From contig NZ_CP079095.1 of assembly GCF_019285515.1 (NCBI RefSeq), forward strand, positions 3,008,501 to 3,072,500: a stretch of 64,000 bases of DNA. Direction: 5' to 3'. A program made the position numbers and the translations under genes. The notes under the pieces are model-generated. The model worked only from the letters and a program-made list of their open reading frames with translations. It had not been told where the DNA came from and did no database searches. Below, one piece after another: positions 42,567 to 59,835 of the stretch (the first letter of the stretch is position 1; each line of letters opens with the position of its first letter). Origin of the DNA: Methylococcus sp. Mc7. GTDB lineage: Bacteria > Pseudomonadota > Gammaproteobacteria > Methylococcales > Methylococcaceae.

Positions 42567-42764
42567 ATGACCGCAAGCAAGACCGCTACGCTGACCTTTC
42601 GGATCGATCCCGGGCTCAAGGAGGCGTTGCGCATCGCAGCGAATCTCGAACATCGGTCCATCGCGAACATGGTCGAGGTTCTGATTCGCGACTATTGCGA
42701 GCAGCGCGGCATAGCCATTCCGCTCCCCGAAGAAACCGAGAACAACAACGGAGCGCGCTCATGA
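42567..42764 (+). CDS. Ribbon-helix-helix (CopG/Arc-like) DNA-binding protein
   Basis: A 65-residue protein. TATLTFRIDPGLKEALRIAANLEHRSIANMVEVLIRDYC is a ribbon-helix-helix fold: a beta strand followed by two helices. ATG 42567 follows TGGAGAGGC. Its TGA overlaps the ATG of the DUF499 gene (ATGA), so it is the first gene of the defence operon. No toxin partner is adjacent, which points to a regulator of the operon rather than an antitoxin. A palindrome that could be its operator lies just upstream. Confidence 0.8.
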   Translation: MTASKTATLTFRIDPGLKEALRIAANLEHRSIANMVEVLIRDYCEQRGIAIPLPEETENNNGARS

Positions 42765-45700
42765 TCAAGACGGTCAAGCAGGCCTGCCGGTTCAATCCGA
42801 TCATCCGGGACTACCGGATGAGCCAGGGGATCGAGAACCTGGCGGAGCTCATCGATGACGAGGGGGACGGGCGGGAGTTCTTCTCGCGCAACTTCGTCAC
42901 CCACGGCATGGAGCAATTGTTCCGCGAGGGACTCCTGCGGCTGTCGGGCAAGTCGGATCAGGCGGTCTTCGAGCTTACCCAGGCCATGGGTGGCGGTAAG
43001 ACGCACATGATGATCGCGCTTGGGCTCCTGGCGCGGCATCCGCACCTGCGTTCCGATGTCCTCCCCCCCGATCTCGCCGCGCGTGTGGACTTTGGCACGG
43101 CACGCATTGCCGCCTTCAACGGCCGCAACAACCCTGATAACTACATCTGGGGCGAGATTGCAACCCAACTTGGCGCTGAGGACGCCATCAAGCCTTATTG
43201 GGTCAATGGCCCCAAGGCAGTCGATCAGCGCAAGTGGAAGGAAATCATCGGCGACGAGCCGACGCTGATCCTGCTGGACGAGCTGCCGCCCTATCTCGAC
43301 AACGCCAGCACCCTACGGTATGGAGAGGGCACGCTGGCCAACATGGTGGTTTACAGCCTTTCCAGCCTAATGAGCGCGGCGCTGGAGTTGCCCAACTGCG
43401 CCATCGTCGTAGCGAATCTCTCGGGTAGCTACAAGGCGCAGACGAAGGCTCTTGCGGACGCCATCTCCAATCTTCAGCAGGAGACGCGCCGCCAGGCAAT
43501 GACCATCACGCCGGTGCAACTGGCCGGCAACGAGATCTACGAAATCCTCAAGAAGCGCCTCATCGACGAGCTGCCGGACGAACGCGTGATCTCCGATATC
43601 GCCGAAGAATACGCCCAGCAGATCAAGAAGGCCGAAGACGGCGGCTATATCGTGGCGGCGAGCATCGAGCAAATTGCCGAGCAAGTCCGGGAGACCTACC
43701 CGTTCCATCCTTCCTTCAAGCACCTCGTTGCACTGTTCAAGGAGAACGAAGGTTTCCGGCAAACCCGCGGTCTGATGCAGTTCACGGCGCGTTTGCTGAA
43801 GAGCGTTGAGGAGCGCGAAGCCGACGACGTATTCCTGGTCGGTACCCAACACCTCAATCTCAATGACGATCAGGTTAAGGATGAGATCGAGCGGATTGCG
43901 CCCAAGCTAATGCCCGCCGTGACCCGTGACATCGCCGACAACGGGAATGCTATCGCGGAGCAGATCGGCGACGAACTCGGAGACGACGCTGCGCAGCAAG
44001 TCATGACCTTGCTGTTGGCTTCATCCCTTTCTCGCGCAGTAGGGGGGCGTATCGGTCTATCCGAAAGCGAGTTGATCGAGTTCCTTGCGGCACCCCAACG
44101 CAAACCAGACGAGTTCCTTCAGGCCCTCCAGCGCCTGCGTGAACAGGCCTGGTATCTGCACCGCGAAGAACAGCGCTTTTTCGTTAAGGAGACCGAGAAT
44201 CTCTCGCGCCAGATCGAGCGCAATGCCAAGGAAGTGCCGCAGCCGAAGATCGATCAGGCGCTCATCAACCGACTGGCCGGCGTCCTGCAACCGGAGCGCA
44301 AAGTCGCGTACCAGGATGTTCAGGTGTTGCCGAAGCTGGATGAGCTCCGGCTCGGCGGGCCACGCACCCTCATCGTCATCAAACCCGATGGCAAGGTACC
44401 GCCCAGCGAACTACAGAATTTCTTCGACTACCAACAAGAGAAGAACAATCTGCTGGTGCTGACCGGGCAGGACAGCCTGTTGGCCGACGCGGTCGAGGAC
44501 CGTTTGCGCGAGCTGTACGCCATCGAACAGATCTACAAGCGCTTAAAGCCTGGGGACACCCTGTACGAGGAAGCCCGCGATCGTCTGGAAGAGGCAGAGG
44601 ACCGATTTGCGAAGGCCTTGTCGGCGGCCTACAACCGCCTCTATTTCCCGATCAACGATCCTATGGATGGCAGCGATAAGCTGGCCAGCGTCACCATCGA
44701 CCAAGGATTGAAACTCGGCAAAGACGAGCAATCGGCGGAAGCACAGATCGAAGCATTGCTGGCTAGTCCGCGCGCCGACTACAAGCTTGTGCGCGAGCTC
44801 ACCAAGGACAACCTGGACGAGTACTTTGCGATGGCCGAGGAGTACCTTTGGCCATCCGGCAAGGACAACCGCCGGACGCCATGGAAGGACGTGGTCACCC
44901 GCGCCAAGTGCTCGCCCGTCTGGCCCTGGATGCCGGGCGCCGGCGGCCTGGACGCCCTCAAGACCGAGGCGCTCAAGCAGGGGCGCTGGCGGTTGGGTGA
45001 AGACGGCTATGTCGAGAAGGGGCCTTTCCCGAAAGACAAGGCCACGGTCAATGTCTCTGTCGTCAACGTCAAGGCCGATACGGGCGAAACCGTGCTGAGC
45101 CTGACACCGCGCCACAGCGGCGACAGCCCCATCGTCTACTGGTCGACCAAGCCGGATGTGTCCGAAAAGGACCATAAGGTCGAAGATCTGGACAACTTCA
45201 CGACGCGTGAAGGCACCTTGTACTTCTTGGTAAAAGAGCCGACCGGCCAATACGAGAGCGCACCGCCCGCGCGCTGGCTTGCCGACCTCAAGATCCGCCA
45301 CCAGGTCGAGCCTGCGGCCAACAAACGGCGTGTGCGCCTCGAAGCCACACCGCACGCAGAGCTCTTCTACACCCTGGATGGCTCTAATCCCAAGGACGGC
45401 AACCGTTACGACGGCCCCTTTGAAATCGGCCCGGGAAGCTACCGCTTGTTGGTCTACGCTCGCGCCGGCGAGGCCAACAAGACGGCTGACTTCCAGATTC
45501 CGGCCAGCGGCGACAAGACGGTCCAGATCGTCGACACCAAGCCGGCCCGCCTGCAGGCGAAGCGCGTGTCTCTCGACACCACCGACCGTGTATTCGGGGT
45601 CATCAATCGCTTTCGCGATCAGCCGGGCACGCGTTTCAAGGGCGTTCGCGTCGAGATCGGCGAGGGGGAAAACACCGTGACCGTGCGCTTCCAGGAGCGT

Positions 45701-45886
45701 GAAGTCACGGCCGCCATGATCGAAGGCGTCGTCGACAGCCTTAGGGAGGTTCTCAACGAACCCGAAGCCTTGGTCAATATCGCCATCGCCGATGGCATTC
45801 AGTTCGATACCGGCTTTGCGCTCAAGGAGTTCGCCAGAATCGCCGGCGTTGAACTTAAGCCCGGCGACGTGAGCCAGGAGGATTGA
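42761..45886 (+). CDS. DUF499 anti-phage ATPase (Hma-type ATPase) with a chitobiase-C-like domain
   Basis: A 1041-residue protein. P-loop MGGGKTH is at residues 76-82 and Walker B LILLDE at 169-174, in the DUF499 family that occurs with DUF3780, DUF1156 and helicase genes in anti-phage loci. The C-terminal third is not ATPase: around residues 866-915, ELFYTLDGSNPKDGNRYDGP is the pattern of a chitobiase/hexosaminidase C-terminal (CHB_HEX_C) or FN3-like beta-sandwich. Residues 915-1041 form a second small domain (DTTDRVFGVINRF ...). By analogy it powers or gates the defence complex; no biochemical role is established to my knowledge. It overlaps the regulator by 4 bp; DUF3780 starts 2 bp downstream. 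Confidence 0.9.
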   Translation: MIKTVKQACRFNPIIRDYRMSQGIENLAELIDDEGDGREFFSRNFVTHGMEQLFREGLLRLSGKSDQAVFELTQAMGGGKTHMMIALGLLARHPHLRSDVLPPDLAARVDFGTARIAAFNGRNNPDNYIWGEIATQLGAEDAIKPYWVNGPKAVDQRKWKEIIGDEPTLILLDELPPYLDNASTLRYGEGTLANMVVYSLSSLMSAALELPNCAIVVANLSGSYKAQTKALADAISNLQQETRRQAMTITPVQLAGNEIYEILKKRLIDELPDERVISDIAEEYAQQIKKAEDGGYIVAASIEQIAEQVRETYPFHPSFKHLVALFKENEGFRQTRGLMQFTARLLKSVEEREADDVFLVGTQHLNLNDDQVKDEIERIAPKLMPAVTRDIADNGNAIAEQIGDELGDDAAQQVMTLLLASSLSRAVGGRIGLSESELIEFLAAPQRKPDEFLQALQRLREQAWYLHREEQRFFVKETENLSRQIERNAKEVPQPKIDQALINRLAGVLQPERKVAYQDVQVLPKLDELRLGGPRTLIVIKPDGKVPPSELQNFFDYQQEKNNLLVLTGQDSLLADAVEDRLRELYAIEQIYKRLKPGDTLYEEARDRLEEAEDRFAKALSAAYNRLYFPINDPMDGSDKLASVTIDQGLKLGKDEQSAEAQIEALLASPRADYKLVRELTKDNLDEYFAMAEEYLWPSGKDNRRTPWKDVVTRAKCSPVWPWMPGAGGLDALKTEALKQGRWRLGEDGYVEKGPFPKDKATVNVSVVNVKADTGETVLSLTPRHSGDSPIVYWSTKPDVSEKDHKVEDLDNFTTREGTLYFLVKEPTGQYESAPPARWLADLKIRHQVEPAANKRRVRLEATPHAELFYTLDGSNPKDGNRYDGPFEIGPGSYRLLVYARAGEANKTADFQIPASGDKTVQIVDTKPARLQAKRVSLDTTDRVFGVINRFRDQPGTRFKGVRVEIGEGENTVTVRFQEREVTAAMIEGVVDSLREVLNEPEALVNIAIADGIQFDTGFALKEFARIAGVELKPGDVSQED

Positions 45887-45888
45887 GA

Positions 45889-46542
45889 ATGGCGCGAGCC
45901 AAGGCCAGGGTTGTCACCCCTCTCCCTGAGGGAGAGGGGCCGGGGGTGAGGGCCGCCAAGCCCACGACTCACACCTTGGGCTTTGGCGTGCCGGCGACCT
46001 CGGACCCGCATCATTTCAAGGTGCTCATCCCCAAGAGCAGCACAGGCAAGGTTCAGATCTCCGAATATCTGGGGCTGCAAGCGGCCGCCAGCGACAACGC
46101 CGTCATCGACCGCGTGCTGCTCGATCGTCCTCGTTGGACGGCCATCCGCAGCGAGGTGCAACGCGCGTTCAACGCGAGATTGGCCGCCCACGGACTCAAG
46201 ACCAGCGCCTGGAAAGTCGGGGAGAACCCGGTCGACCGGCTCCTGGGCAAGGAACTCTGCGTACTCGCCTGGGCTGTGGAGCAGATGCTTCCTGAGAAAA
46301 TTCCGGTGGCCGTGCGCAACTGGCTGGCGCTACGACCGGAGGAGCGATGGTGGCTCTTCGGCATGACCGCCATGACCACCGGAGGTGTGCTCGATGCCGG
46401 CAAGGGCTGGCGTGCGGCCCTGCAGCATGCCTTGGGCGATGTTGCGCAAAGCGAGTTGCTGGCTCCGCGTGCTCGCCGGGGACGACACGACAGCACGGAG
46501 TCACGGCCCACGCTGGATCTATTCGGAGACGATAACGGGTGA
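45889..46542 (+). CDS. DUF3780 anti-phage protein with a repeat-encoded N-terminus
   Basis: A 217-residue protein. From about residue 26 (THTLGFGVPATSDPHHFKVLIPKSS) it follows the DUF3780 pattern and stays so to WWLFGMTAMTTGG. Residues about 10-20 (TPLPEGEGPGV) are encoded by a palindromic repeat (45917-45952) sitting just after the ATG. A GTG at 45946 after the repeat could be the older start. ATG 45889 has a strong GGAGG site (45877-45881). DUF3780 is regularly found between DUF499 and DUF1156 in these loci; function unknown. Confidence 0.85.
   Translation: MARAKARVVTPLPEGEGPGVRAAKPTTHTLGFGVPATSDPHHFKVLIPKSSTGKVQISEYLGLQAAASDNAVIDRVLLDRPRWTAIRSEVQRAFNARLAAHGLKTSAWKVGENPVDRLLGKELCVLAWAVEQMLPEKIPVAVRNWLALRPEERWWLFGMTAMTTGGVLDAGKGWRAALQHALGDVAQSELLAPRARRGRHDSTESRPTLDLFGDDNG
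45917..45952. repeat. GC-rich palindromic repeat (REP-like), copy B, inside the DUF3780 gene
   Basis: CCTCTCCCTGAGGGAGAGG followed by CCGGGGGTGAGGG. Same pattern as copies A and C. Confidence 0.75.
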
Positions 46543-46612
46543 CTACTCAGGCTCCGCGACAGCTCTCGCCAAGTTGTCTGGCAGGCATCATGGGCAGAAA
46601 TAGGGGATAGGC

Positions 46613-49408
46613 ATGGTCGCAACGATTGCCGAACAGCCGGATGTTTGGCCCTATCCGGGCTCCCGCTGGTGGAAGTTCGACTTTCACACGCACACTCCCG
46701 TCTCGCTGGATACGCCATGGCATCGGCAAAACCTCGATCTGTCGCCGGAGCTATGGTTGCTCAGATTCATGGCGGCCGGAATCGACTGTGTGGCCGTAAC
46801 CGACCACAACAGCGGTGCCTGGGCCGATTCGCTCAAGGCAGCTTACGAGGGAATGAAAGCTCGGCGCCCGGAAGGCTTCCGCGAATTGACCCTCTTCTCG
46901 GGCGTCGAAATTTCGGTGCAGGGCGGCTTTCATCTGCTGGCCCTCTTCGATCCCGCCGCCACGACCAGTGACATCGATACCTTGCTCGGGCAAGTCGGCT
47001 ACAACGGGACCAAAGGTGACAGCGACGGCGTGACGCGCCGCGGTGCTGGCGAGGTGGTGCAGGCGGTGCTGGACTCGGGCGGGCTTCCCATCCTCGCGCA
47101 TGCCGATGGCGACAAAGGGCTACTGGCTGTGCGGGAAGGCACGCGCGAGTGCCGGCTCGACGCGAACACGGTCCTGGAGGCGCTCGACACCGATGGGCTC
47201 CTGGCCATGGAATGGCTCGACATGGCGAAGCCGCTCCCCGAGCGCGTCGAGAAGCGGGCGAGCAAGCTCGCCCGTGTGCTCGGCAGCGACTGTCACAGCT
47301 TTCAAGGCAACGGCGGGGCTGGCTCACGCTACACCTGGGTCAAGATGGCCACGCCCACCCTCGAAGGCCTGCGGCTGGCGCTGCTGGATGGCAATGGCGT
47401 TTCCATCCGGCGCAGCGATGAAGGGCCCTTCGAGCCGTTCAGGACGCCAGCACACTTCATCACCGGCATCGAGGTCGAGTCGGCCCGCTTCATGGGCAAC
47501 GGGCAGCCCGAGCGGCTCGCCCTTACGCCCTACTACAACGCCTTGATCGGAGGGCGCGGCACCGGAAAATCAACCATCGTCCATGCGACGCGCCTGGCAT
47601 TCCGGCGCGATGACGATCTGAAGCATCTGACCGAGAAGAGCGATCCTCGGCGCCAATTCGAGGACTTCCGCAAGGCCGTCAGGGGACGCGATGGCGACGG
47701 CGCGTTACGCGAGAACACCGAAATCCGCATCGAACTGATCTGCGATGGCGTTCCGCATCGCCTGCGCTGGCGAGCGGACGGTCAAGGCGATGTGGTCGAG
47801 GAACGTGGTGAAAATGGTCAATGGATGGTCTCGGCGAGCCAGGCCATCCATGCCGAGCGCTTCCCGATCCGTTTGTTTTCGCAGGGGCAGATTGCTGCAA
47901 TGGCCGGCGACAGCCGCCAGGCGCTGCTCGACGTCATCGACCAAGCGGCCAATATCGCGCCGCTGCACCGCGCCTTCGAGGAAGCCAGGCGCACTTACTT
48001 CGCCCAACGGGCGAAGCTGCGCGAGCTCGATGGTCATTTGAGTGGTAGCCCCGAGTTGCAGCGCAAACATGCGGACCTGATCCGCAAGATCGAGGCCCTG
48101 GCGCAATCCCACCACGCCGAAGTGCTCAAGGCGCATCAGCAAGCGCAACGACAGCGCCGCGAAGTGGACCAGGCGCTCGAACAGTTGCGCGCTTTGCCTG
48201 CGCGGATCGAAGCCTTGGCGCAGGATTTTCTGCTCGACGACTGGCCCGATGGTGCCTTCGATGTGTCGCAAGATGCCGATGTCTTGGCTTGGCGGAATGA
48301 TGCCGAGGCTGCTCTGACGGAAGTGCAGGATGCGCTGTCCCGTGCCGCGACTGCGCTGCGTGGGCGGACGGATGCGCTGGGCGCGGATGAGCGGCTGGCG
48401 ATTTGGCGTCGGCGTGTGGACAAGGCGCGGGAAGCTTATGAAGCGCTCCAGGCCGCATTGGCAGCGCAAGGCGTGGCCGATCCGCAGACCTTCGGTCGAC
48501 TGGTTCAGGAGCGACAGCAGCTCGAAGTGCAACTGAAGCAACTGGAGCAGATCGGACGCGACCGGGAGCGCCTGCAGGCGGAGAACGACGCGCAATGGCT
48601 GCGCGTGGCGCAGGCACGTGCCGCCATCAGCCAGGCACGTGCCGCCTTTCTAGGGGATGCGCTGCGCGCCAACGAATTCGTGCGCATGGAGGTGGTGCCG
48701 TACGGCTTCGACGCAAGGATCATCGAGCGCGATCTGCGCGAGCTGCTTGATGTCGCCGGTGACCGCTTCGAAGGAGACATACTGCAATTGCGTGACAGCG
48801 AACCTGCAGGCGGCCTTGCCTTTGAGCTGGCTCAGGCCGATGACCGTGAGCGAACGTTGCAGGTCATCAAGCAGCGGCTGATCGATATCGATGGCAGTTT
48901 CGGTGGTCATTTCCGCAACTACCTGCAGCGCAAGCTGGAAAAACCAGAGTTCGCCGACCACATCCGCTGCTGGTTCCCAACGGACGACCTGCGCATCGAA
49001 TACAGCCGCACTGGCAATGGGCAAGACTGGGCCGCCATTTCGCAGGGCTCGCAAGGTCAGCGTTCGGCGGCCTTGCTTGCGTTCCTGCTCGCCTTCGGCG
49101 ATGAGCCGCTGGTGCTCGACCAGCCCGAGGACGATCTGGACAACCACCTGATCTACGACCTGATCGTGCGCCAGATCCGGGCCAACAAGCTGCGCCGGCA
49201 ACTGATCATCGTGACCCACAATCCCAACGTCGTGGTCAATGGCGACGCCGAGATGGTCCACGCCTTCGATTTTCGCGGCGGTCAGTGCCGGGTCGTCGAG
49301 CGCGGTGCACTACAGGAGCTGCCGGTGCGCGAAGAAGTGTGTCGCGTGATGGAAGGCGGCCACGAGGCCTTTGCGCGCCGCTGGGCGCGCTTGGGCCGGG
49401 AGCTTTGA
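46613..49408 (+). CDS. TrlF-like ATPase: PHP phosphoesterase fused to SMC/ABC-type ATPase
   Basis: A 931-residue fusion. The PHP metal-dependent phosphoesterase domain (residues 1-270) has DFHTHT (23-28), TDHN (63-66), ILAHADGD and GSDCHSF. The SMC/RecN-like ABC ATPase (from about 290) has Walker A GGRGTGKST (about 312-320), a coiled coil (about 470-680), signature GSQGQRSAAL and Walker B LVLDQPEDDLDN (about 831). Such PHP-SMC proteins occur in defence islands; a nucleic-acid cleavage activity is a fair inference. A 70-bp gap, the largest in the operon, separates it from DUF3780, and it starts the first extra module. Confidence 0.88.
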   Translation: MVATIAEQPDVWPYPGSRWWKFDFHTHTPVSLDTPWHRQNLDLSPELWLLRFMAAGIDCVAVTDHNSGAWADSLKAAYEGMKARRPEGFRELTLFSGVEISVQGGFHLLALFDPAATTSDIDTLLGQVGYNGTKGDSDGVTRRGAGEVVQAVLDSGGLPILAHADGDKGLLAVREGTRECRLDANTVLEALDTDGLLAMEWLDMAKPLPERVEKRASKLARVLGSDCHSFQGNGGAGSRYTWVKMATPTLEGLRLALLDGNGVSIRRSDEGPFEPFRTPAHFITGIEVESARFMGNGQPERLALTPYYNALIGGRGTGKSTIVHATRLAFRRDDDLKHLTEKSDPRRQFEDFRKAVRGRDGDGALRENTEIRIELICDGVPHRLRWRADGQGDVVEERGENGQWMVSASQAIHAERFPIRLFSQGQIAAMAGDSRQALLDVIDQAANIAPLHRAFEEARRTYFAQRAKLRELDGHLSGSPELQRKHADLIRKIEALAQSHHAEVLKAHQQAQRQRREVDQALEQLRALPARIEALAQDFLLDDWPDGAFDVSQDADVLAWRNDAEAALTEVQDALSRAATALRGRTDALGADERLAIWRRRVDKAREAYEALQAALAAQGVADPQTFGRLVQERQQLEVQLKQLEQIGRDRERLQAENDAQWLRVAQARAAISQARAAFLGDALRANEFVRMEVVPYGFDARIIERDLRELLDVAGDRFEGDILQLRDSEPAGGLAFELAQADDRERTLQVIKQRLIDIDGSFGGHFRNYLQRKLEKPEFADHIRCWFPTDDLRIEYSRTGNGQDWAAISQGSQGQRSAALLAFLLAFGDEPLVLDQPEDDLDNHLIYDLIVRQIRANKLRRQLIIVTHNPNVVVNGDAEMVHAFDFRGGQCRVVERGALQELPVREEVCRVMEGGHEAFARRWARLGREL

Positions 49409-49409
49409 G

Positions 49410-50711: not shown

Positions 50712-50715
50712 CGCC

Positions 50716-51009
50716 ATGAACCCGCTTCCCAAACGGTTGAAGGATGATGCCCGGGCGCATCTGCAAGATGACGTCGTGTCCGATGAACAGCCAATAACCG
50801 AACTGGGGAAGAAACTGCTGGCATTGCGTCGAGCCTGGCTTGCCAGCGGCGGAAAGCCCTTGTCGGCCGACCAATTGGACGAAGAGATGCGGGAACGTCG
50901 GGGAGGGCTGATGTTTGCTGAAAAAAATCTCGCGGAAGATTGGCTGCGAGCCGAGGAGGACGAGGCATGGGCGCATTTGCAGCAGGCACGGCCAGGGGAT
51001 CATTCGTGA
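50716..51009 (+). CDS. Small hypothetical protein of the defence operon
   Basis: A 97-residue protein, not recognised. Charged and predicted helical: ITELGKKLLALRRAWLASGGKPLSADQLDEEMRERRGG. ATG 50716 lies 4 bp after the Schlafen gene stop; a TTG at 50698 is an in-frame alternative. Its TGA overlaps the GTG of the methyltransferase gene. The acidic, helical make-up and its position before an enzyme resemble antitoxin-like or adaptor proteins, but that is only an impression. Confidence 0.7.
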   Translation: MNPLPKRLKDDARAHLQDDVVSDEQPITELGKKLLALRRAWLASGGKPLSADQLDEEMRERRGGLMFAEKNLAEDWLRAEEDEAWAHLQQARPGDHS

Positions 51010-53969
51010 CACCCCTCACCCCCCTGGCATTGAAAGACGCGCCTGCCTTGATCGAAACAGTCTTCCCGGCGCAGAAGGTGTCGTTCGAGGCGCAGAAGGA
51101 ACGCAAAGCCGGTCGAGCCCAGACCCTTACTGGACTTGGCTCGTTTTGGAAGGGCAGGAAGCCCCTGATCCTGGTGCGCGCCATCGTCCTCGGCAGCCTC
51201 CTGCCGCCCACGGACGACGCCGAGGCCGACCTGGCCATATTCGAGAAGCTCATGGCCTTCGACGACGAGGGATTGGCACGCCGCGCACTCGCCGCCAACG
51301 CCTTCTCCGCCGCCCGGCTGCAGGAGACGATGCCCATCGCCGACCCCGAGCGCTATTTCTCTCTCCCCTCTCCCCCCGGGAGAGGGGCCGGGGGTGAGGG
51401 CAAGGCGCGCTGGCGCCGCGACATCACCGACGACGACAAGCTCGTCCTGTACCGCCGCGCGCTGGCAACACTCCCTAGCTACGAAGAAAAGGCTGGCATA
51501 GCCAAGCGCCCCGAAGAAGTGGATCAGGACTGGCTCTACGCCCCGGTATGGCCGGTGGTGAATCGTCACTATGCCCATCTGGGGCTCGATGCCCATTCCT
51601 TCCCCGAACTCATTGAGCAGCTCGGTATTTTGCGCTACGGCCACCGTCCGCGCGTAGGCGACACCTTCTGCGGCGGCGGCTCTATTCCCTTCGAGGCGGC
51701 GCGCATCGGCTGCGATGTCTATGCCTCGGACCTGAACCCCGTGGCCTGCATGTTGACGTGGGGCGCATTCAACGTCATTGGCGCATCTCCTGAACAACGC
51801 AACGAAATCGATCAGGCGCAGCGTATTGTTGCAGATGCAGTGGACACTGAAATTACGCGGTTGGGTATCGAACACGACGAGCATGGTAACCGTGCCAAAG
51901 CGTATCTCTATTGCTTGGAAGCTCGCTGCCCCGAAACTGGCTGGCTCGTGCCAATGGCGCCCAACTGGGTTATCTCGCGGTTCAAGGGGGTTATCGCGGT
52001 TCTGAAGCCAAACCATGAAAAACGGAAATTTGATATTGAAATCAAATCTGGCGCGTCAAATCCCGAAGTAGCTGCTGCAGAGGTGGGCACGGTGCAAGGC
52101 GAATCGCTGGTTTATTCGCTGAACGGCAAGACGTATCGAATTCCCATCAAGACGATACGCGGAGATTACCGCCTTGCGGATGGAACGACGGGCAATCGCC
52201 TGCGCCAGTGGAAAAAAGAGGACTTCGTGCCGAGGCACGATGATATCTTCCAAGAGAGGTTGTACTGCATTCACTGGATTGCCAAGGAAAGCATTGGAAA
52301 GCCGCGCTTGGAAACTTTCTTCGCCGCACCGACCGACGCCGATCTGAAACGCGAGCAGCGCGTGGAAGAGATCGTCGCCGAAAACCTCGCCCGCTGGCAG
52401 GAGGAAGGCTGGGTGCCGGATATGGCCATCGAGCCTGGGGACGAGACGACACGCCTATTCCGAGAGCGTGGCTGGACCCACTGGCACCACCTGTTCAATG
52501 CGCGGCAACTCCAAATGCTGCAGAGCATCCTGCGACATGGAAGAACAACGAACACCTGGCTGGCCAGTCTCGGAATTCTCAACCTTCAATCCAAGCTTTG
52601 TGCGTGGCACAACGATGGTCGAAAGGGCGGACTTCAAAACGTCTTCTCGAACCAAGCACTCAATACCCTGTTCAATTGGGGTTCGCGCGGACTTGTCGAT
52701 CTCACGGCCTACATCCAACTCGACACGAAGAATTCTCCAGTTCGGCAATCGCTTGATTTGAAGGCGGTTCCAGCGGAGGCGGTGTCAGTTGAGTCTGAGT
52801 TCTGGATCACCGACCCCCCCTACGCCGACGCCGTCAACTACCACGAGATTACCGAGTTCTTTATCGCCTGGCTGCGCAAGAACCCGCCCAAGCCCTTCGA
52901 CGAATGGGTGTGGGACTCGCGCCGGGCGCTGGCGATCAAGGGTTCGGGTGAAGACTTCCGGCGCGGCATGGTCGCCGCCTACAAAGCCATGGCCGAGCAC
53001 ATGCCCGACAACGGCATGCAGTGCGTGATGTTCACCCATCAGGACACGGGGGTGTGGAGCGACCTGATCGGCATCTTCTGGGCGGCGGGCCTGCAAGTGG
53101 TGGCCGCGTGGTACATCGCCACCGAGACCACCTCGGAGCTCAAGAAGGGCGGCTACGTGCAGGGCACGGTGATCCTGATGCTCAGGAAGCGCCCCCCCGG
53201 CGAGCGTGCCGGCTTCAAGCAGCGCCTGCTACCCGCCGTGCGCCAGGAGGTGGCGCGGCAGATCGAGACCATGATGCACCTCAACAAGCAGGTGTCCGCG
53301 CATCACGGCGAGCCGGTTTGGAACGACTCGGACCTGCAGATGGCGGGCTATGCGGCCGCACTGAAGGTGCTCACGGCCTACACCCACATCGGCGGCGAGG
53401 ACGTGACGACCTTCGCCCTGCGCCCGCGTGCCCGCGGGGAAGTGACCGTCGTGGACGAGATCGTCCAGCAGGCGAGCGAGACGGCGTCCAGCCTGTTGGT
53501 GCCAGAAGGCTTGAGTTCCGCGACCTGGGCCAAGCTCACAGGCATCGAGCGCTTCATGCTGCGCATGTGGGACATGGAGACGACCGGCGCGCAGAAGCTC
53601 GACAACTACCAGAACTTCGCCAAGGCCTTCCGTGTGGCGGACTACAGCCGCGTGATGGGCGACATGCGGCCCAACCAGGCGCGCCTGAAGCGGGTGACCG
53701 AGTTCACATCCCGCGACCTGACCGACGCCACTGAGCTGGGCGCAACCCGCCTCGGCCGACTCATCATCGCCCTGCAACAGATGCTGAAGGACACCGAGCC
53801 GCAAGTGATCGTCGATCAGCTGCGCGCCGAGATGGCGGACTTCCTGGAAATTCGCCCGCTGCTGGTGGATCTGCTGGTCTTCATCGAGCGCAAGTCGGCG
53901 GAGTCTGAAGTGCGCAGCGCCGCCGAGGTGCTGGGTGCGCGGCTGAAGAACCTGCGCTTTGGGGATTGA
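51006..53969 (+). CDS. DUF1156 DNA methyltransferase (Hma-type methylase) with repeat insertion
   Basis: A 987-residue SAM-dependent DNA methyltransferase of the DUF1156 family. SAM-binding DTFCGGGSIPFEAA is at residues 219-232 and catalytic TDPPYADAV at about 602-610. By family this gives adenine or cytosine-N4 methylation. Residues 119-132 (SLPSPPGRGAGGEG) come from an in-frame palindromic repeat. The centre (about 51780-52790) is visibly less GC-rich than both flanks, as if exchanged by recombination. The start GTG 51006 overlaps the preceding stop; an in-frame ATG at 50967 is the alternative. It probably marks self DNA for the defence complex. Confidence 0.9.
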   Translation: MTPLTPLALKDAPALIETVFPAQKVSFEAQKERKAGRAQTLTGLGSFWKGRKPLILVRAIVLGSLLPPTDDAEADLAIFEKLMAFDDEGLARRALAANAFSAARLQETMPIADPERYFSLPSPPGRGAGGEGKARWRRDITDDDKLVLYRRALATLPSYEEKAGIAKRPEEVDQDWLYAPVWPVVNRHYAHLGLDAHSFPELIEQLGILRYGHRPRVGDTFCGGGSIPFEAARIGCDVYASDLNPVACMLTWGAFNVIGASPEQRNEIDQAQRIVADAVDTEITRLGIEHDEHGNRAKAYLYCLEARCPETGWLVPMAPNWVISRFKGVIAVLKPNHEKRKFDIEIKSGASNPEVAAAEVGTVQGESLVYSLNGKTYRIPIKTIRGDYRLADGTTGNRLRQWKKEDFVPRHDDIFQERLYCIHWIAKESIGKPRLETFFAAPTDADLKREQRVEEIVAENLARWQEEGWVPDMAIEPGDETTRLFRERGWTHWHHLFNARQLQMLQSILRHGRTTNTWLASLGILNLQSKLCAWHNDGRKGGLQNVFSNQALNTLFNWGSRGLVDLTAYIQLDTKNSPVRQSLDLKAVPAEAVSVESEFWITDPPYADAVNYHEITEFFIAWLRKNPPKPFDEWVWDSRRALAIKGSGEDFRRGMVAAYKAMAEHMPDNGMQCVMFTHQDTGVWSDLIGIFWAAGLQVVAAWYIATETTSELKKGGYVQGTVILMLRKRPPGERAGFKQRLLPAVRQEVARQIETMMHLNKQVSAHHGEPVWNDSDLQMAGYAAALKVLTAYTHIGGEDVTTFALRPRARGEVTVVDEIVQQASETASSLLVPEGLSSATWAKLTGIERFMLRMWDMETTGAQKLDNYQNFAKAFRVADYSRVMGDMRPNQARLKRVTEFTSRDLTDATELGATRLGRLIIALQQMLKDTEPQVIVDQLRAEMADFLEIRPLLVDLLVFIERKSAESEVRSAAEVLGARLKNLRFGD
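51358..51401. repeat. GC-rich palindromic repeat (REP-like), copy C, inside the methyltransferase gene
   Basis: CCCCTCTCCCCCCGGGAGAG followed by GGGCCGGGGGTGAGGG. In frame; encodes LPSPPGRGAGGEG. Confidence 0.8.
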
Positions 53970-53979
53970 GGGAGAAGGA

Positions 53980-54396
53980 ATGCAGGCGGATTTTCTGGAT
54001 GCGCATGAGCGGCACTGGGTTGATGCGGAGGGCTTGTTCCAGGCCCAGCGCTGGGCCAATGCCGATCATCTGTATGGTATGGCGGCCGAGTGTGGATTGA
54101 AGCGGTTGATGCTGGCCTTCGGGATGCCCTATGACTCGGCCCGCGACCGTCCTGACAAGAGCCAGGACCGGACACACGCCAACGACATCTGGGCTCGCTT
54201 CGAAAGCTATCGTTGCGGCCATCATCAGGGCGCCGGTTACGCGCTGACAACGCCCAATCCTTTTGCCGATTGGGATGTGGCACAACGCTATGCCCACCAG
54301 GCGAATTTCGATCAGATGCGTGCAGAGGCTCATCAAGCCGGCGTCATCCTGGTGCGCAACCTGGTCCAGAAAGCAAAGCGGGAGGGCGTGATATGA
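53980..54396 (+). CDS. Small helical protein, HEPN-like
   Basis: A 138-residue protein, not firmly recognised. RWANADHLYGMAAECGLKRLMLAFG is the pattern seen in HEPN-like helical proteins (A-x-HL-G-AAEC-LK). HANDIWARFESYRCGHH and DVAQRYAHQANFD supply His and Arg residues, but a clean R-x4-6-H HEPN nuclease motif is not obvious. ATG 53980 follows GGGAGAAGG, 10 bp after the methyltransferase. It overlaps the next gene (ATGA), so it belongs with the two ATPases that follow. It could be an RNase effector or an inactive sensor. Confidence 0.72.
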   Translation: MQADFLDAHERHWVDAEGLFQAQRWANADHLYGMAAECGLKRLMLAFGMPYDSARDRPDKSQDRTHANDIWARFESYRCGHHQGAGYALTTPNPFADWDVAQRYAHQANFDQMRAEAHQAGVILVRNLVQKAKREGVI

Positions 54397-55694
54397 CCTT
54401 CGATGACATCCTGCCCGCCATCAAGGAGACGCTCGCCGCACATGCGGATGCGTTGAACGGCCTTTCGTTCCTGCTCATCAACCGCGATCTTTATGGTCGG
54501 GTACGTTTGATCGCCCCGGAAACCGTGCAGGAGGAGGAAGCCGCCCGCGCGGCGCTGGAAAGGCTGGCGGTCACTGTGGCCGAACGGCTCGGCTCGCACG
54601 CCTACCCACCCGATTCGGCCATTCTCTATGAAGCCGACCGGGAGCTGGCTTGCCAAGGCGCCGCAACCGTCCCGCTCGAAGGCCATGCTAACGTGTGGGT
54701 GGTGGACCGTCTGGCGACCGAAGGCAACTGGGCGCAGATCGCGCCTGAAACTCAGGGGCCGCCCCGCATTGTGTTCTTTTCGATCAAGGGTGGTGTGGGT
54801 CGCTCCACGGCGCTGGCCGCCACCGCCTGGTGGCTGGCCCAAGCGGGCAGGCGCGTCCTGGTGCTGGACCTGGACTTGGAATCCCCCGGCCTGTCGTCCA
54901 GCCTGTTGCCGCCTGATCGTCAGCCCAAGTACGGCATTACCGACTGGCTGGTGGAGGATCTGGTGGACAACGCCGATGCGGTGTTCGAAAGCCTGATCGC
55001 CACTAGCGGCTTGTCCCATGACGGTGAGATCTACGTGGTTCCGGCTCATGGTGCCGATCCAGGTGAATATGTGGCCAAACTAGGGCGAGTGTGGATGCCC
55101 AAAATTCGATCGGACGGGACGCGCGAGTCATGGTCCAGCCGATTGCATCGACTATTGCAGGCGCTGGAGGGGCGCATCCGTCCCGATGTGGTGCTGATTG
55201 ATTCGCGCGCCGGTATCGACGAGGTGGCATCCGCCTGCGTGACCGATCTAGGTGCGAACCTAGTGCTGTTGTTCGCACTGGAAGGCAGCCAGACCTGGAG
55301 CGGCTACCGTATTCTGTTCGAGCACTGGCGGCGTGCCGGGGTCGCTGAATCGGTGCGTGAAAGGTTGCAGCTTGTGGCGGCGACAACACCCGATACCGAA
55401 GCCCGTCTCAATTATCTCGAGACCTTGCGCGAGAACGGGTATGACCTTTTTGCGACGTCACTCTACGACGAAATTCAAGCTGGGGAGGCGGTTGGAGATC
55501 GCTGGCATTTCGAGGCGGCGGACGATACTGCACCGCATGCCCCCTGGGAGGTACGTTGGCACCAAAGCTTTGCCGGCTTGAGATCATTGCATGGGCGCCT
55601 CACGGAGATCGATGACACTGCGGTGCGTGCCATTTTCGGCCCGATGATCGAGGGCATCGTACAAACCGCAGGGCTGGAGAATGGCAATGTCTGA
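54393..55694 (+). CDS. KGGVGR-variant ParA/MinD-like ATPase
   Basis: A 433-residue SIMIBI-class ATPase. The deviant Walker A KGGVGRST is at residues 132-139, with Arg where typical ParA has Lys/Thr; VLDLDLESPGLSSSLL and VLIDSRAGIDEVAS follow. The first 125 residues form a separate domain. NCBI models recognise a KGGVGR-motif variant group, as I recall; its function is not settled. The ATG overlaps the helical protein gene, and the next ATPase gene overlaps its end. Together the three look like one cassette inserted between methyltransferase and helicase. Confidence 0.82.
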   Translation: MTFDDILPAIKETLAAHADALNGLSFLLINRDLYGRVRLIAPETVQEEEAARAALERLAVTVAERLGSHAYPPDSAILYEADRELACQGAATVPLEGHANVWVVDRLATEGNWAQIAPETQGPPRIVFFSIKGGVGRSTALAATAWWLAQAGRRVLVLDLDLESPGLSSSLLPPDRQPKYGITDWLVEDLVDNADAVFESLIATSGLSHDGEIYVVPAHGADPGEYVAKLGRVWMPKIRSDGTRESWSSRLHRLLQALEGRIRPDVVLIDSRAGIDEVASACVTDLGANLVLLFALEGSQTWSGYRILFEHWRRAGVAESVRERLQLVAATTPDTEARLNYLETLRENGYDLFATSLYDEIQAGEAVGDRWHFEAADDTAPHAPWEVRWHQSFAGLRSLHGRLTEIDDTAVRAIFGPMIEGIVQTAGLENGNV

Positions 55695-57081
55695 AGCTCA
55701 AGCGTTGCGCGATGCCATCCTGGCGGCGCCTCTGGAAACCAGCAACTTCGGCGAGGAACCGCAGCCGGGGACACTCTACGTTCCCCTGTCCCATCTGAAG
55801 GCGCTCAAGCTGGATGCACACGTGGTCGTCGGCGGCCGCGGTGTGGGCAAATCCTTCTGGACCGCCGCGTTGCAGTCCGAAGCGCTGCGAAACCTGCTGG
55901 GCTCCACGGCGCCTGAACTGAATGATGTCGTGGTGCAGGTAGGCTTTGCGAGCAGCCCATCCATCGACTGCTATCCTAATGCCGATGTTTTCGAGGCTTT
56001 CATCGCCCAAGGCGGCGATCCCTATGATCTCTGGCGTGCAGTCGTCCTGCGTTGGGTGGCAGGTCGTGCGCATCAGACCATTCCGGTAGCGAGCTGGGCG
56101 GAGACCGTTGCATGGTTGAAGGATAGGCCGGAAGAGGCTGCACGTCTGATGCAACAGCCACGTGCCTGGCGTGGCCTGATTCTGTTCGATGCGCTGGATC
56201 GCACCAGCAACGACTGGAAGCGGATGGATGACATCGTGCGCGGCCTGCTGCGCGCGGTACTTTGGCTCAAGGGCTTTCCGGGGCTTTACGGCAAGGTTTT
56301 TCTGCGCGAAGACCAGGCGGAGCGTACGGTATTCAATTTTCCGGATGCCTCCAAACTGACGGCCACCAAGGCCGAGTTGACCTGGGCCAGGCACGACCTG
56401 CACGGATTGCTCTGGCAGCGTCTTGTCAATGCTCCCGATGGGCATGGCGTGACGTTGCGCGGAATTTGTGCAGCCGAACAGCGCGAGGGCGTCTGGTTGG
56501 TCGCCGGTGAAATGAAGCGCGAATCCGAATCGCAACGCATGGCTTTCGAACGGCTGGCTGGTCCCTGGATGGGGCGCGATCGGCGCCGTGGTGTTCCTTA
56601 CACCTGGTCGGTCGGGCACCTGGCCGATGGCCGCGGTCAGACTTCACCGCGCTCGTTTCTTGCGGCCATTCGTCAGGCTGCGGAGGATTCCAGTGAACGG
56701 TATCCGCATCACGAGTATGCGCTTCATTACGAAAGTATCAAACGCGGCATTCAGAAGGCGTCCGAGATCCGGGTGACCGAAGTGGCCGAAGATTATCCCT
56801 GGGTTCCGGAAGTCCTCTCGGTGCTCCGGGGAATGAATGTGCCATGCACCTACGAGGACATCCTGTCGCAGTGGCAAGACAATTTTCCGACTGGGCCACA
56901 GGATATTCATTCAGCGCGGTTGCCTGCACAGCACGCCAGCCGCGGCTGGGAAGGTATTCGCGAGGATTTACTGCGCCTCGGCCTGATTGAAACCAAGAAA
57001 GACGGTCGTATCGATATGCCTGACCTGTACCGCGTGGGTTTTGGCTTGGGCCGCAAGGGCGGCGTGAAGCCTCGGAATTGA
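55687..57081 (+). CDS. P-loop ATPase paired with the KGGVGR ATPase
   Basis: A 464-residue P-loop NTPase. Walker A GGRGVGKS is at residues 49-56 and Walker B LILFDALDR at 164-172. The C-terminal part (from about 370: PWVPEVLSVLRGMNVPCTYEDI) looks like a winged helix ending in a basic tail. I know no name for it. ATG 55687 is chosen because GGAG (55675-55678) is better spaced than for ATG 55681. It overlaps the previous gene by 8 bp, and the helicase gene starts 6 bp after it. Confidence 0.8.
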   Translation: MSEAQALRDAILAAPLETSNFGEEPQPGTLYVPLSHLKALKLDAHVVVGGRGVGKSFWTAALQSEALRNLLGSTAPELNDVVVQVGFASSPSIDCYPNADVFEAFIAQGGDPYDLWRAVVLRWVAGRAHQTIPVASWAETVAWLKDRPEEAARLMQQPRAWRGLILFDALDRTSNDWKRMDDIVRGLLRAVLWLKGFPGLYGKVFLREDQAERTVFNFPDASKLTATKAELTWARHDLHGLLWQRLVNAPDGHGVTLRGICAAEQREGVWLVAGEMKRESESQRMAFERLAGPWMGRDRRRGVPYTWSVGHLADGRGQTSPRSFLAAIRQAAEDSSERYPHHEYALHYESIKRGIQKASEIRVTEVAEDYPWVPEVLSVLRGMNVPCTYEDILSQWQDNFPTGPQDIHSARLPAQHASRGWEGIREDLLRLGLIETKKDGRIDMPDLYRVGFGLGRKGGVKPRN

Positions 57082-57087
57082 GGCGCA

Positions 57088-59835
57088 ATGAGCATTCGCC
57101 GCTTTTCTTCCAGAACGCATCGCCTTGACGCCAGCTTCCTGATGCAGCATCTGGTAGGCGCCAAAAGCTACAAGCGCATCGCTGGATACTTCACCAGTTC
57201 GCTGTTCGAGGTGGCCGGTGAGGTGCTGGAGGACATCCCCGAGGTCAAGATCGTCTGTAACGTGGACATCCACCCGGACGACCTGAAGGTTGCCCAGTTG
57301 CGTGAAAGCAAGATGCTGGGCCGCTGGAACGAGCGGGCTCTGGAAGCCGAGGCCCTGCTGCACCGTGATCGCTACCGGCGCCTGGATACCTTCTTACAGA
57401 AGCACGGCCAGGCCGTGCGGGTGGCGCCGGATGAGATTTGTGGCTTTGTGCATGGCAAGGCGGGGGTGATCACCTTGGCCGATGGTCGCAAGCTCGGCTT
57501 TATCGGCTCGATGAACGAAACCCGCAGCGGCTGGCAGCGGCACTACGAGATCCTGTGGGAAGACGAGTCTCCGGAAGGCGTCGCCTGGATCGAGGAGGAG
57601 TTCGAGTTCCTCTGGAATGCCGCCAAGCCCTTGCCCCAGGCGATCATCCGCGAGGTGCATCGCCGGGGCTATCGCCGCGAAGTGGTCTTCGACGAGATCG
57701 ACGAGGACGAGAACCTTGCGCCGGCGGCGCTGATCGAGTCCCCCCTTTACCGCGAGGGGCAGCAGTTGCAGCCCTGGCAGCAGGGCTTCCTGACCGAGTG
57801 TCTGCGCCACTACCAGCTCCACGGCGTGGTGCGGCTGCTGCTCGCCGACGAGGTAGGGCTGGGAAAGACGCTGTCGCTGGCGACGGCCGCGCTGACGCTG
57901 TGTCTCCTCTCGGACAAAGAAAACGGCCCATCCCGCCCGGTCGTGATCTTTGCACCGGCCACGCTTACCGAGCAATGGCAAACCGAGATGCTGGACAAGC
58001 TCGGTATCCCCTCCGCGCGTTGGGACACAGTACGCAAGGTCTGGCTAGATGCGGTCGAGCGCGCCATTTCTCCGGCGGGCCGCGAGCAGATCGCCCGTTG
58101 CCCTCTGCGCATCGGCATCGTGTCCACCGGGCTCATGATGCGCGATTCGCAGGAAAAGCAGCATCTCTTGGGCCTGCGTTTCAGCGTTGTGATTCTCGAC
58201 GAGGCGCATAAGGCCCGCACCCGCAAGGGCTTTGGCCGGGACGCGGGCACGCCCAACGAACTGCTGGCCTTCATGCGCGAGATCGCAGCGCGGGCGGATC
58301 ATGTGCTGCTGGGCACGGCTACGCCGATCCAGACCGATCCGGTCGATTTGTGGGATTTGCTCGGCATCCTGCATCAGGGCAAGGGCCGATTCGTGCTCGG
58401 GCACGATCTGTCGCCCTGGCATCGACCTGACGAGGTGCTGGAGATTTTGGCCGGCCGGCAAGAAGTGCTGGACGTGGGGCATGCCTGGGAGTTGCTGCGC
58501 TCGCCGCTGCCGCGCGTCGAGTCCACCAGCGAGCCGCATGCCCGCAAGCTGTTCTCTGCCATCCGGCAAGACCTGGGGCTCACCCAGGAGGAATGGCAGA
58601 CCCAACACCCCTGGACCGATCTTGCCGAGGAGACGCGCGAGATACTGCAAGAGGAGCTGGAGCGGCGCATTGCCGGCGCGACCTTCTTTCAGCGCGAGAA
58701 CCCGCTGGTACGGCATGTCGTGCTGCGCAAACGCCAGCAGCTGGAGGACGCCGGGCTGCTGGCGCGGGTGGGCGTCGACGTTCACCCCGACCGAGCGCGG
58801 GTGCGGGAGCCGCGTGCCTTCGATGTCCTGTTCGAAGACAAGGCGCTGCGGACTTCAGAGAACTTCCGCGCGGCCTACAGCCAGGCACGCGCCTTCGGCA
58901 AGGCGCTCGCCAAACGCGGCAAGGGTAGCGGGTTCATGAGGAACCTCATGGAACAGCGCATCTGCTCCAGCATCGAGGCGGGTCTCGCAACCGCTCGACG
59001 GTTGTTGCAAGGGCAGACCGTGCATGAAGCGGGGGACGAGTTCGAGGTCGACCTGGCTGTTGAAACACCAGAGGAACGCGAGGCTCTCGAACGCCTCATC
59101 GACAGCCTGCAACGGCTCGACGCGGACCCCAAGATGCAGGCTGTGATCCACTACCTGAGCCAAGAGAGATGGCTTGAACTTGGCGTGATCATCTTCAGCC
59201 AGTACTTCGACACCGCGAAATGGGTGGCCGATGACCTGGCCGCCCGTTATCCCGACGAGGCGATCGGCCTCTACGCCGGGGCGGGGCGCAGCCGCCTCTA
59301 TCAACGTGGTGACAGCGTCGCGGTGGAGCGCGAGACACTGAAGCGGATGGTCGCCGAGCACCAGATTCGGGTCATGGTGGCCACCGATGCCGCGTGCGAA
59401 GGTCTCAACCTGCAGACCCTCGGCACGCTTATCAATGTGGACCTGCCCTGGAACCCGACGCGCCTGGAACAGCGCATTGGACGAATCAAGCGCTTCGGCC
59501 AGAAGCGGGAGACCGTCGAGATGCTGAACCTGGTATTCGAGCAGACGGTGGACGAGAAGATCTACGAGCGGCTGTCGGAGCGCATGCGCAACCGCTACGA
59601 CCTGTTCGGTTCCCTACCCGATACCATCAAAGACGAGTGGATCGAGGACATCGAGTCCCTTGGGGAGAGGCTGGACGAGTACATCGACGCCCAGAAGACG
59701 GCGACTGGCTTCGACCTGCGCTACACGGCAACGATGACTCCTCCGGACAAGGACTGGCGAGACTGTTTCGAAGTGCTGGCCAGGCGGGACTTCGTTTCTT
59801 TGATGAGTGTTGCCTGGGGGAGCAGACTGCTTTGA
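57088..59835 (+). CDS. PLD-domain SNF2-type anti-phage helicase (Hma-type helicase)
   Basis: A 915-residue protein. The N-terminal phospholipase D-like domain (residues 1-180) has HGK at 122-124 and GSMNETRSGW (140-149). The SNF2/superfamily 2 helicase has Walker A DEVGLGKT (254-261), DEAH (370-373), GTATPIQ, DAACEGLNLQ and QRIGRIKRFGQ (about 794). This is the architecture of the PLD-like anti-phage helicase that closes DUF499/DUF3780/DUF1156 loci. The single HxK motif fits a PLD nuclease that dimerises. Last gene of the operon; its reading frame continues open past the TGA for a short stretch. Confidence 0.92.
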   Translation: MSIRRFSSRTHRLDASFLMQHLVGAKSYKRIAGYFTSSLFEVAGEVLEDIPEVKIVCNVDIHPDDLKVAQLRESKMLGRWNERALEAEALLHRDRYRRLDTFLQKHGQAVRVAPDEICGFVHGKAGVITLADGRKLGFIGSMNETRSGWQRHYEILWEDESPEGVAWIEEEFEFLWNAAKPLPQAIIREVHRRGYRREVVFDEIDEDENLAPAALIESPLYREGQQLQPWQQGFLTECLRHYQLHGVVRLLLADEVGLGKTLSLATAALTLCLLSDKENGPSRPVVIFAPATLTEQWQTEMLDKLGIPSARWDTVRKVWLDAVERAISPAGREQIARCPLRIGIVSTGLMMRDSQEKQHLLGLRFSVVILDEAHKARTRKGFGRDAGTPNELLAFMREIAARADHVLLGTATPIQTDPVDLWDLLGILHQGKGRFVLGHDLSPWHRPDEVLEILAGRQEVLDVGHAWELLRSPLPRVESTSEPHARKLFSAIRQDLGLTQEEWQTQHPWTDLAEETREILQEELERRIAGATFFQRENPLVRHVVLRKRQQLEDAGLLARVGVDVHPDRARVREPRAFDVLFEDKALRTSENFRAAYSQARAFGKALAKRGKGSGFMRNLMEQRICSSIEAGLATARRLLQGQTVHEAGDEFEVDLAVETPEEREALERLIDSLQRLDADPKMQAVIHYLSQERWLELGVIIFSQYFDTAKWVADDLAARYPDEAIGLYAGAGRSRLYQRGDSVAVERETLKRMVAEHQIRVMVATDAACEGLNLQTLGTLINVDLPWNPTRLEQRIGRIKRFGQKRETVEMLNLVFEQTVDEKIYERLSERMRNRYDLFGSLPDTIKDEWIEDIESLGERLDEYIDAQKTATGFDLRYTATMTPPDKDWRDCFEVLARRDFVSLMSVAWGSRLL

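Follow-up and report, generated by a model that had tools for sequence, protein, structure and literature searches.

A Type-2 DUF499-centred BREX-related operon in Methylococcus sp. Mc7 with probable cargo slots on both sides of its methylase gene

The main text of Rakesh and Krishnan (2026, PMC12839542) describes DUF499-centred BREX-related (BR) systems with a BrxC-like DUF499 ATPase and gives a stand-alone DUF3780 protein together with an N-terminal HKD nuclease on the helicase as the marks of Type 2. FnIII-like domains in the C-terminal part of DUF499 are reported there for 53% of the Type-2 taxa, and Hma is used as an alternative name for DUF499 systems as a group. BR loci with embedded nuclease effectors, and likewise the idea of embedded back-up effectors, also appear in that text. 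Hma is a trio of helicase, methylase and ATPase in the excerpted part of Payne 2021 (PMC8565338) and acts as a host of embedded defences in excerpts of PMC12255303 and PMC12988326. Here we describe an operon of eleven genes at 42567–59835 in a stretch of 64,000 nucleotides from Methylococcus sp. Mc7 (contig NZ_CP079095.1, positions 3,008,501 to 3,072,500), referred to below as the window. All coordinates are window positions, and all features of the operon lie on the + strand. The operon is most probably a Type-2 DUF499-centred BR restriction-like system that serves as a chassis, with one cargo slot before and another after the methylase gene.

Identity of the backbone

All four backbone proteins exceed the NCBI equivalog cut-offs under family names that contain "anti-phage", which bears out the domain calls of a first-pass annotation of the window (DUF499, DUF3780, DUF1156 and PLD-helicase). 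The DUF499 AAA+/STAND ATPase (42761–45886) reaches 1534.5 bits with NF042962 (cut-off 1200) and 1449.5 bits with PDLC02192, and it contains Walker A/B-type motifs. Two FnIII-like matches are located in its C-terminal part: PF13287 at residues 858–890 (28.1 bits, cut-off 23) and PF13290 at residues 855–908 (26.8 bits, cut-off 22). The DUF3780 protein (45889–46542), the Type-2 marker, matches NF042961 with 284.8 bits (cut-off 200) and PF12635 with 255.6 bits. The DUF1156 N6-adenine DNA methyltransferase (51006–53969, GTG start) matches NF042963 with 1392.6 bits (cut-off 1000) and has a DPPY motif at residue 603. The PLD (HKD)-SNF2 helicase (57088–59835), the presumed restriction effector, scores 1228.9 bits with NF042964 (cut-off 1100) and 1395 bits with PDLC02193. 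Its N-terminus carries the HKD/PLD nuclease (PF13091 PLDc_2, residues 87–176, 41.1 bits, cut-off 27); a TUDOR domain found no Pfam match in the helicase at E≤0.01.

By its protein families the backbone is a Type-2 DUF499-centred BR system, sister to Hma rather than Hma itself. It shares with the Type-2 systems in the main text of PMC12839542 the DUF499 ATPase with Fn3-like domain, the stand-alone DUF3780, the DUF1156-type N6-methylase and the SNF2 helicase with N-terminal PLD/HKD nuclease. It differs in that the present locus holds two cargo sets. As whole words, ParA, slot, hotspot and recombination are absent from the main text of that paper.

Hma proper, which would comprise the BR types without DUF3780 and PLD helicase, was considered and rejected. 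The PADLOC models HmaA, HmaB and HmaC reached 119.3, 73.7 and 153.2 bits, compared with 1395, 1432.4 and 1449.5 bits for the PLD_Helicase, DUF1156_MTase and DUF499 models. Because the Hma models score about a tenth, the Hma label fits only in the sense of a sister system. The first-pass annotation had called the backbone Hma-type: the set of helicase, methylase and ATPase is indeed of the anti-phage type, but given the model scores and the two Type-2 marks it is not that of Hma proper. The papers listed for a literature query on HmaA were unrelated.

Reading the window sequence directly, we found all eleven frames open without internal stops. Ten genes had been counted before. A small RHH gene heads the operon. 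The junctions measure, in gene order, -4, +2, +70, +1, +4, -4, +10, -4, -14 and +6 bp. Nine of them lie within -14 to +10 bp, and the sole large gap (70 bp) separates DUF3780 from the PHP gene. The spacing described previously (4-bp overlaps or gaps mostly below 12 bp) therefore stands, as only one junction in ten is wider than 12 bp. Walker-type motifs are present in DUF499, the helicase, the PHP-ATPase, M28B and M28C; the PHP-ATPase has four PHP-type motifs, the helicase a PLD-type motif and the methylase its DPPY. We take these motifs to have their usual meanings.

Cargo slots and their contents

Three genes are located between DUF3780 and the methylase (slot A) and three between the methylase and the helicase (slot B), in agreement with the first-pass annotation. 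To define occupancy, a slot was called filled when the gap exceeded 250 bp. A draw of genomes from the phylum contained DUF3780 in only 2 of 398, own genome included, too few for a survey, and a wide scan of genome contigs was done instead. For this, a methylase alignment of the window and 8 plasmid loci was run against one genome per species (84,980 species). The sample consists of the best 80 of 508 confirmed stretches, and counts of genome loci below refer to these 80. Cargo open reading frames (ORFs) were called with a simple script, and their starts are approximate.

Backbone gene order and strand are kept in all 66 loci that have the four genes. Slot occupancy was counted in 67 of the 80 loci, 13 being omitted as the gap was not measurable: both slots are empty in 24, only A is filled in 25, only B in 1 and both in 17. 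Because many related loci have empty slots, the internal genes are cargo rather than core components, and their earlier description as inserted modules holds. The same is seen at the same chromosomal site, where one congener lacks the slot-A module (see below). Two filled slots in one backbone, previously thought unusual, are common in the sample (17 of 67). A real dependency between the two slots was considered and dropped: Fisher's test gave P = 0.0012, but independent pairs gave a median P of 0.06. Of the 8 plasmid loci, read with their annotation, 5 have both slots free of genes; cargo occupies both slots in Deinococcus psychrotolerans, and slot B in Thiodictyon and Desulfosarcina. Two genome loci look as if interrupted: in L073 the match to DUF499, and in L080 that to the methylase, extends over much more DNA than elsewhere.

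The cargo was typed by clustering of ORFs, with 20 representatives compared with Pfam and 10 with PADLOC. Seventeen of the 20 matched Pfam families, mostly of toxin-antitoxin or defence types. Slot A of the relatives holds DarTG (20 loci), AlbA/Schlafen, PIN, Phd-YafQ, Uma2 and HEC-01. Slot B holds M28ABC in 10 genome loci and PIN/VapC in two (L003, L078), besides single cases of AlbA (L007, plasmid), IetAS (L049), PDC-S28 (L076) and AbiU/AIPR (L020); some cargo is nameless. DarTG was also found once in slot B (L083, 13060–14784), against slot A in the 20 other loci. DarTG, AlbA and PIN are thus seen in both slots. Of the cargo ORFs of at least 100 aa in the 80 genome loci, 104 of 119 run in the direction of the operon, a strand that the ORF caller favours.

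Slot A of the window contains a TrlF-family PHP-ATPase, a Schlafen/AlbA protein and orf6. The PHP phosphoesterase with SMC-like ATPase (46613–49408) matches NF045780 (TrlF_fam_ATP) over residues 16–928 with 594.9 bits (cut-off 350). It shares the PHP plus SMC-like ATPase architecture with the TrlF family and Ppl. It differs from Ppl in the strict sense, an assignment we rejected, by scoring 487 bits with NF042955 against an equivalog cut-off of 1000, and by being embedded together with AlbA. Its gene was found in one of the 80 genome loci (L014), and a PDB sequence search gave no match. The neighbouring protein (49410–50711) combines Schlafen AlbA_2 (PF04326, 57.4 bits, cut-off 25.3) with HATPase_c_4 (PF13749, 62.7 bits, cut-off 26). 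The third gene, orf6 (50716–51009), encodes a 97-aa orphan and overlaps the methylase gene by 4 bp. It has no match in PADLOC or Pfam and a single chance-level match in NCBIfam; a partial homologue (58%) is located in slot A of L024. An orphan antitoxin had been guessed from its appearance, and the three databases give this guess no support.

Slot B of the window is occupied by PDC-M28, a system known only as a catalogued candidate of PADLOC-DB and not named in the open-access literature we searched. All three proteins are adjacent and in the catalogued order: M28A (53980–54396, 186.2 bits), M28B (54393–55694, 612.5 bits with PDLC04559) and M28C (55681–57081, 683.7 bits). M28B is a ParA/MinD-like ATPase with a KGGVGR motif (NF047398, 202.7 bits, cut-off 90). 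M28C is predicted to be a STAND/Cdc6-like P-loop NTPase; a PDB sequence search with it returned only P-loop matches at chance level. For M28A a HEPN fold is predicted, and the PDB sequence search, with a profile that included one unrelated row (L102), gave no match. A conserved Rx4-6H motif is expected of HEPN ribonucleases. Over 18 rows of M28A no pair of R and H columns at that spacing is conserved; in the window such a string occurs once, at residue 24. M28A is therefore no more than a possible RNase. Conserved residues are R11, H12, E37, K41, R103 and Y104, with H66 in 94% of the 18 rows. An excerpt of PMC3710099 noted in 2013 a HEPN family in an operon with a ParA/Soj-type ATPase; identity with M28A is not implied.

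M28 was seen in 10 genome loci, in slot B each time and never in slot A. Relatives of both module kinds also exist outside this backbone, M28 at other loci and the PHP-ATPase as a named family; the first-pass annotation had called embedded genes of this sort candidate stand-alone systems. On plasmids, M28C and DUF3780 each match 20 records, and the two sets do not overlap. Of 15 M28C plasmid regions that were read, 11 have M28A, M28B and M28C in order, and 4 have M28C alone, these being distant homologues on Streptomyces plasmids (L124, L125, L127, L129) without M28A or M28B. In three plasmid regions (L091, L094, L097) M28 is part of a BREX-2 operon and neighbours pglX, from which two small genes separate it in L091. 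An integrase gene lies directly upstream of M28 in four (L093, L095, L096, L123). IMG/VR contains 14 contigs with M28C (10 with A-B-C, 3 with B-C and 1 fragment), and none of 50,697 phage records matched M28C.

In the phylum draw M28C was detected in 27 of 398 genomes, own included (E≤1e-3, some matches partial). The 19 longest M28C places outside the window, from 17 genomes, were followed up over about 7 kb per side or to the contig end. M28A was detected in 13 and M28B in 17 of them, and one has M28B fused to M28C. No BR or BREX-2 reference protein was found near any of the 19 (blastp, E≤1e-8), a search with few references that may miss distant kin. Five loci in four genomes of one genus encode M28C fused to a metallophosphoesterase and NACHT in proteins of 1328–1790 aa (L138, 10606–15978; L139, 3113–8437; L140, 10156–14142; L141, 5942–10219; L142, 7515–12590); in three of these loci M28A and M28B precede the fusion gene.

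Exchange of cargo and of the methylase recognition-like region

The operon of the window sits between an AMP-binding gene and a haem-oxygenase-like gene. This site is empty in the congeners G398 and G399, where roughly 140 and 80 bp separate the two flanking genes. Congener G402 carries the operon at this position too, with M28 in slot B and about 270 bp in place of PHP-AlbA-orf6; its slot A (L116, between DUF3780 and methylase) contains a lone 75-aa ORF of a kind we did not recognise. In G400 the operon is located elsewhere in the genome, with slot B empty and about 1.8 kb in slot A. In G401 a 48-aa methylase-like match (58%) follows the AMP-binding gene (L120, 13589–13732), the right flank lying beyond the fetched stretch. 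The M28 proteins of the window are nearer to those of L019, a metagenome-assembled genome (MAG) of Rhodanobacteraceae (82–85%), than to those of G402 (68–76%), and DUF499 is likewise nearer to L019 (93%) than to G402 (89%). Operons at one site have therefore also been replaced, which speaks against reading the G402 site as simple descent.

The comparison with L014 (Pseudomonas sp. PIC25) resolves one exchange. At four-fold degenerate sites, agreement between the two loci is 54% for DUF499, 50% for the methylase and 53% for the helicase. It rises to 75% and 88% in the halves of DUF3780 and to 87% in the PHP gene; AlbA reaches 95% over its first 450 nt and then falls to 60% and 51%. Judged from these profiles, the slot-A cassette was recently exchanged with the L014 lineage; the exchanged tract covers about 46.2–49.9 kb, beginning within DUF3780 and ending within AlbA. 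A second pair concerns slot B. The DUF499 DNA of L086 (Caldimonas) and L019 is 97–100% identical, and only L019 has M28, which lies in the interval from the end of the methylase gene to the beginning of the helicase gene. In the helicase, identity to L086 drops to 84–85% over the first two bins of 300 bp.

A FastTree backbone tree was built from 65 rows, the window and plasmid loci among them; any locus in which a gene was short or absent was omitted, and several branches are long. M28 (8 rows) requires 8 changes on this tree, compared with a mean of 7.7 for shuffled labels, and DarTG in slot A requires 3, compared with 17.3. M28 thus appears to come and go freely and DarTG to be largely inherited. 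The free movement of M28 is qualified by its pair distances, which correlate with those of the backbone (Spearman 0.67–0.82, 9 loci); because they do, M28 is not wholly independent of its hosts.

The window methylase contains a hypervariable region that resembles a recognition domain, at about residues 250–600 according to an identity profile. Residues 500–600 are only 22–40% identical in 7 of 10 close relatives; L010, L011 and L064 keep 68–94% there and so share the type of the window. The first 100 residues (apart from L080, where the gene is split) and most of those past 600 are 72–100% identical in the relatives. For region 480–610 we compared 45 rows of close kin, leaving out L080 with its split methylase match, and obtained 15 types at 60% identity. 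On the backbone tree these types need 27 changes versus 29.5 when shuffled (lowest 25). The clearest pair is L012 (Rhodanobacter MAG) and L023 (Comamonas), 99–100% identical from the promoter to the middle of DarTG. Their recognition-like regions are 70–76% identical or not alignable, and downstream the identity is mostly 93–100% again. By these alignments, cargo and the recognition-like region are exchanged between operons that are otherwise up to 100% identical. Since ATPase and helicase are kept while the region changes, the methylase would set the site for both marking and cutting, or cutting would need no site of its own.

Regulation, proposed mode of action and neighbourhood

The first gene (42567–42764) encodes an RHH-like protein of 65 aa, a likely autoregulator (PF07878 RHH_5, E 9e-5, 22.6 bits, below the Pfam cut-off of 26). 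Homologues were found by tblastn in 41 of the 64 genome loci whose sequence extends upstream of DUF499; some other loci have small genes at that position, RHH-like by eye only. A candidate operator/promoter element was located upstream of it (42524–42549) from the aligned upstream regions. The conserved motif reads TACTGTA-n3-TGCAGTACT-TTTGCAG, also TACTGTA-n3-TGCAGTACA-TTTGCAG, and has several invariant columns over 37 distinct sequences. In the alignment of 42 RHH-bearing loci, window included, core columns reach 2 bits, compared with a mean of 0.27 bits further upstream. With one mismatch allowed, the core TGCAGTACNTTTGCAG occurs once in the 4.0-Mb genome, as does a backward control pattern. 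A strict regular expression for the operator matched 28 of 41 RHH loci, the 13 others having variants, and none of the 30 loci, plasmid ones among them, in which no RHH homologue was detected; this distribution may reflect descent rather than function.

The small RHH protein probably represses the operon through this motif. A parallel is RptR, described in an excerpt of PMC12255303 as the small first-gene repressor of a Type I restriction-modification island with embedded DarTG2. Both loci have a small first gene as regulator (a likely one here), a repeated operator and defence cargo inside a modification system. The present locus differs by its RHH-like regulator and another backbone, and repression is suggested here by analogy.

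From family knowledge and the main text of PMC12839542 we propose the following mode of action. The DUF1156 methylase would mark the cell's own DNA, the recognition region of the methylase determining the site. DUF499 and DUF3780 would scan or assemble on unmarked DNA, and the PLD-SNF2 helicase would translocate and cut. The slot cargo would most likely provide back-up responders. In M28, the STAND-type sensor ATPase M28C and the ParA-like ATPase M28B may control the HEPN protein M28A, and cells whose restriction layer is beaten would stop growing via M28. The RHH protein would probably keep the operon repressed. As the sequence comparisons show, slot contents come, go and are swapped, the best-resolved case being a recombination that ends inside the neighbouring genes.

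A broader reading, which we put forward tentatively, is that Type-2 BR operons are plug-in chassis, each a single transcription unit with RHH repressor and operator. Methylase specificity and two back-up cartridges would be swapped independently round a near-fixed core. M28ABC would be a free-standing HEPN/ParA-like/STAND module, fused to a metallophosphatase-NACHT in another genus and serving as a fail-safe in at least two BREX-family backbones. All eleven genes could instead form one integrated machine, in which the six internal proteins are accessory subunits that depend on the BR backbone and respond to a trigger from it, such as DUF499 or a helicase that has stalled. The tight coupling with 4-bp overlaps, the constant slot-B position of M28 (10 of 10 genome loci) and its place beside pglX in three BREX-2 operons are consistent with such a machine. 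It is nevertheless unlikely, given the 24 of 67 loci with both slots empty, the seemingly random distribution of M28 over the backbone tree (8 changes against a mean of 7.7 after shuffling) and the 19 further M28 loci, none with a nearby match to the few BR or BREX-2 references.

If the slots were neutral landing sites in a defence island, with no benefit from co-transcription, many cargo types would be expected, some in both slots, as is the case for DarTG (A of 20 loci, B of L083), AlbA and PIN. The orientation of 104 of 119 cargo ORFs along the operon (with the strand preference of the caller) and the mostly toxin-antitoxin or defence families among the 17 of 20 matched representatives make this very improbable. 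That the operon is degraded or silent, with no current role, is hardly credible: the remnant in G401, where only a 48-aa methylase-like match was seen at the site within the fetched stretch, points in this direction, but in the window eleven frames are open, catalytic motifs are present and a cassette was recently exchanged. The locus and its relatives provide natural experiments of unusual clarity: near-identical operons that do or do not carry M28, a congener without slot-A cargo at the same site, and operons differing mainly in the recognition-like region. Such cases allow direct tests of whether specificity resides in the methylase alone, whether the cargo is autonomous or triggered by failure of the backbone, and what role M28 plays.

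Defences embedded in defences are a published concept. "Guilt by embedding" and Hma-embedded candidates come from a preprint by Payne and others (2024), known to us through excerpts of PMC12255303, PMC12988326 and PMC12629846. Because the backbone, the embedding and embedded back-up effectors are already in print, we regard the locus as a well-resolved further case of a known type. We met no report of the two-slot count, the methylase-region exchange, the RHH-linked motif or the M28C-NACHT fusion in the main texts of the open-access literature, the first three not having been searched for specifically, so that all four may nevertheless be in print.

At the left end of the window (2432–3145, + strand) lies a gene for a particulate methane/ammonia monooxygenase subunit (PF02461, 450.7 bits). 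A second copy with equal score is located at 1.51 Mb in the same genome, and with this pair of pmoA-type genes the host looks like a methanotroph.

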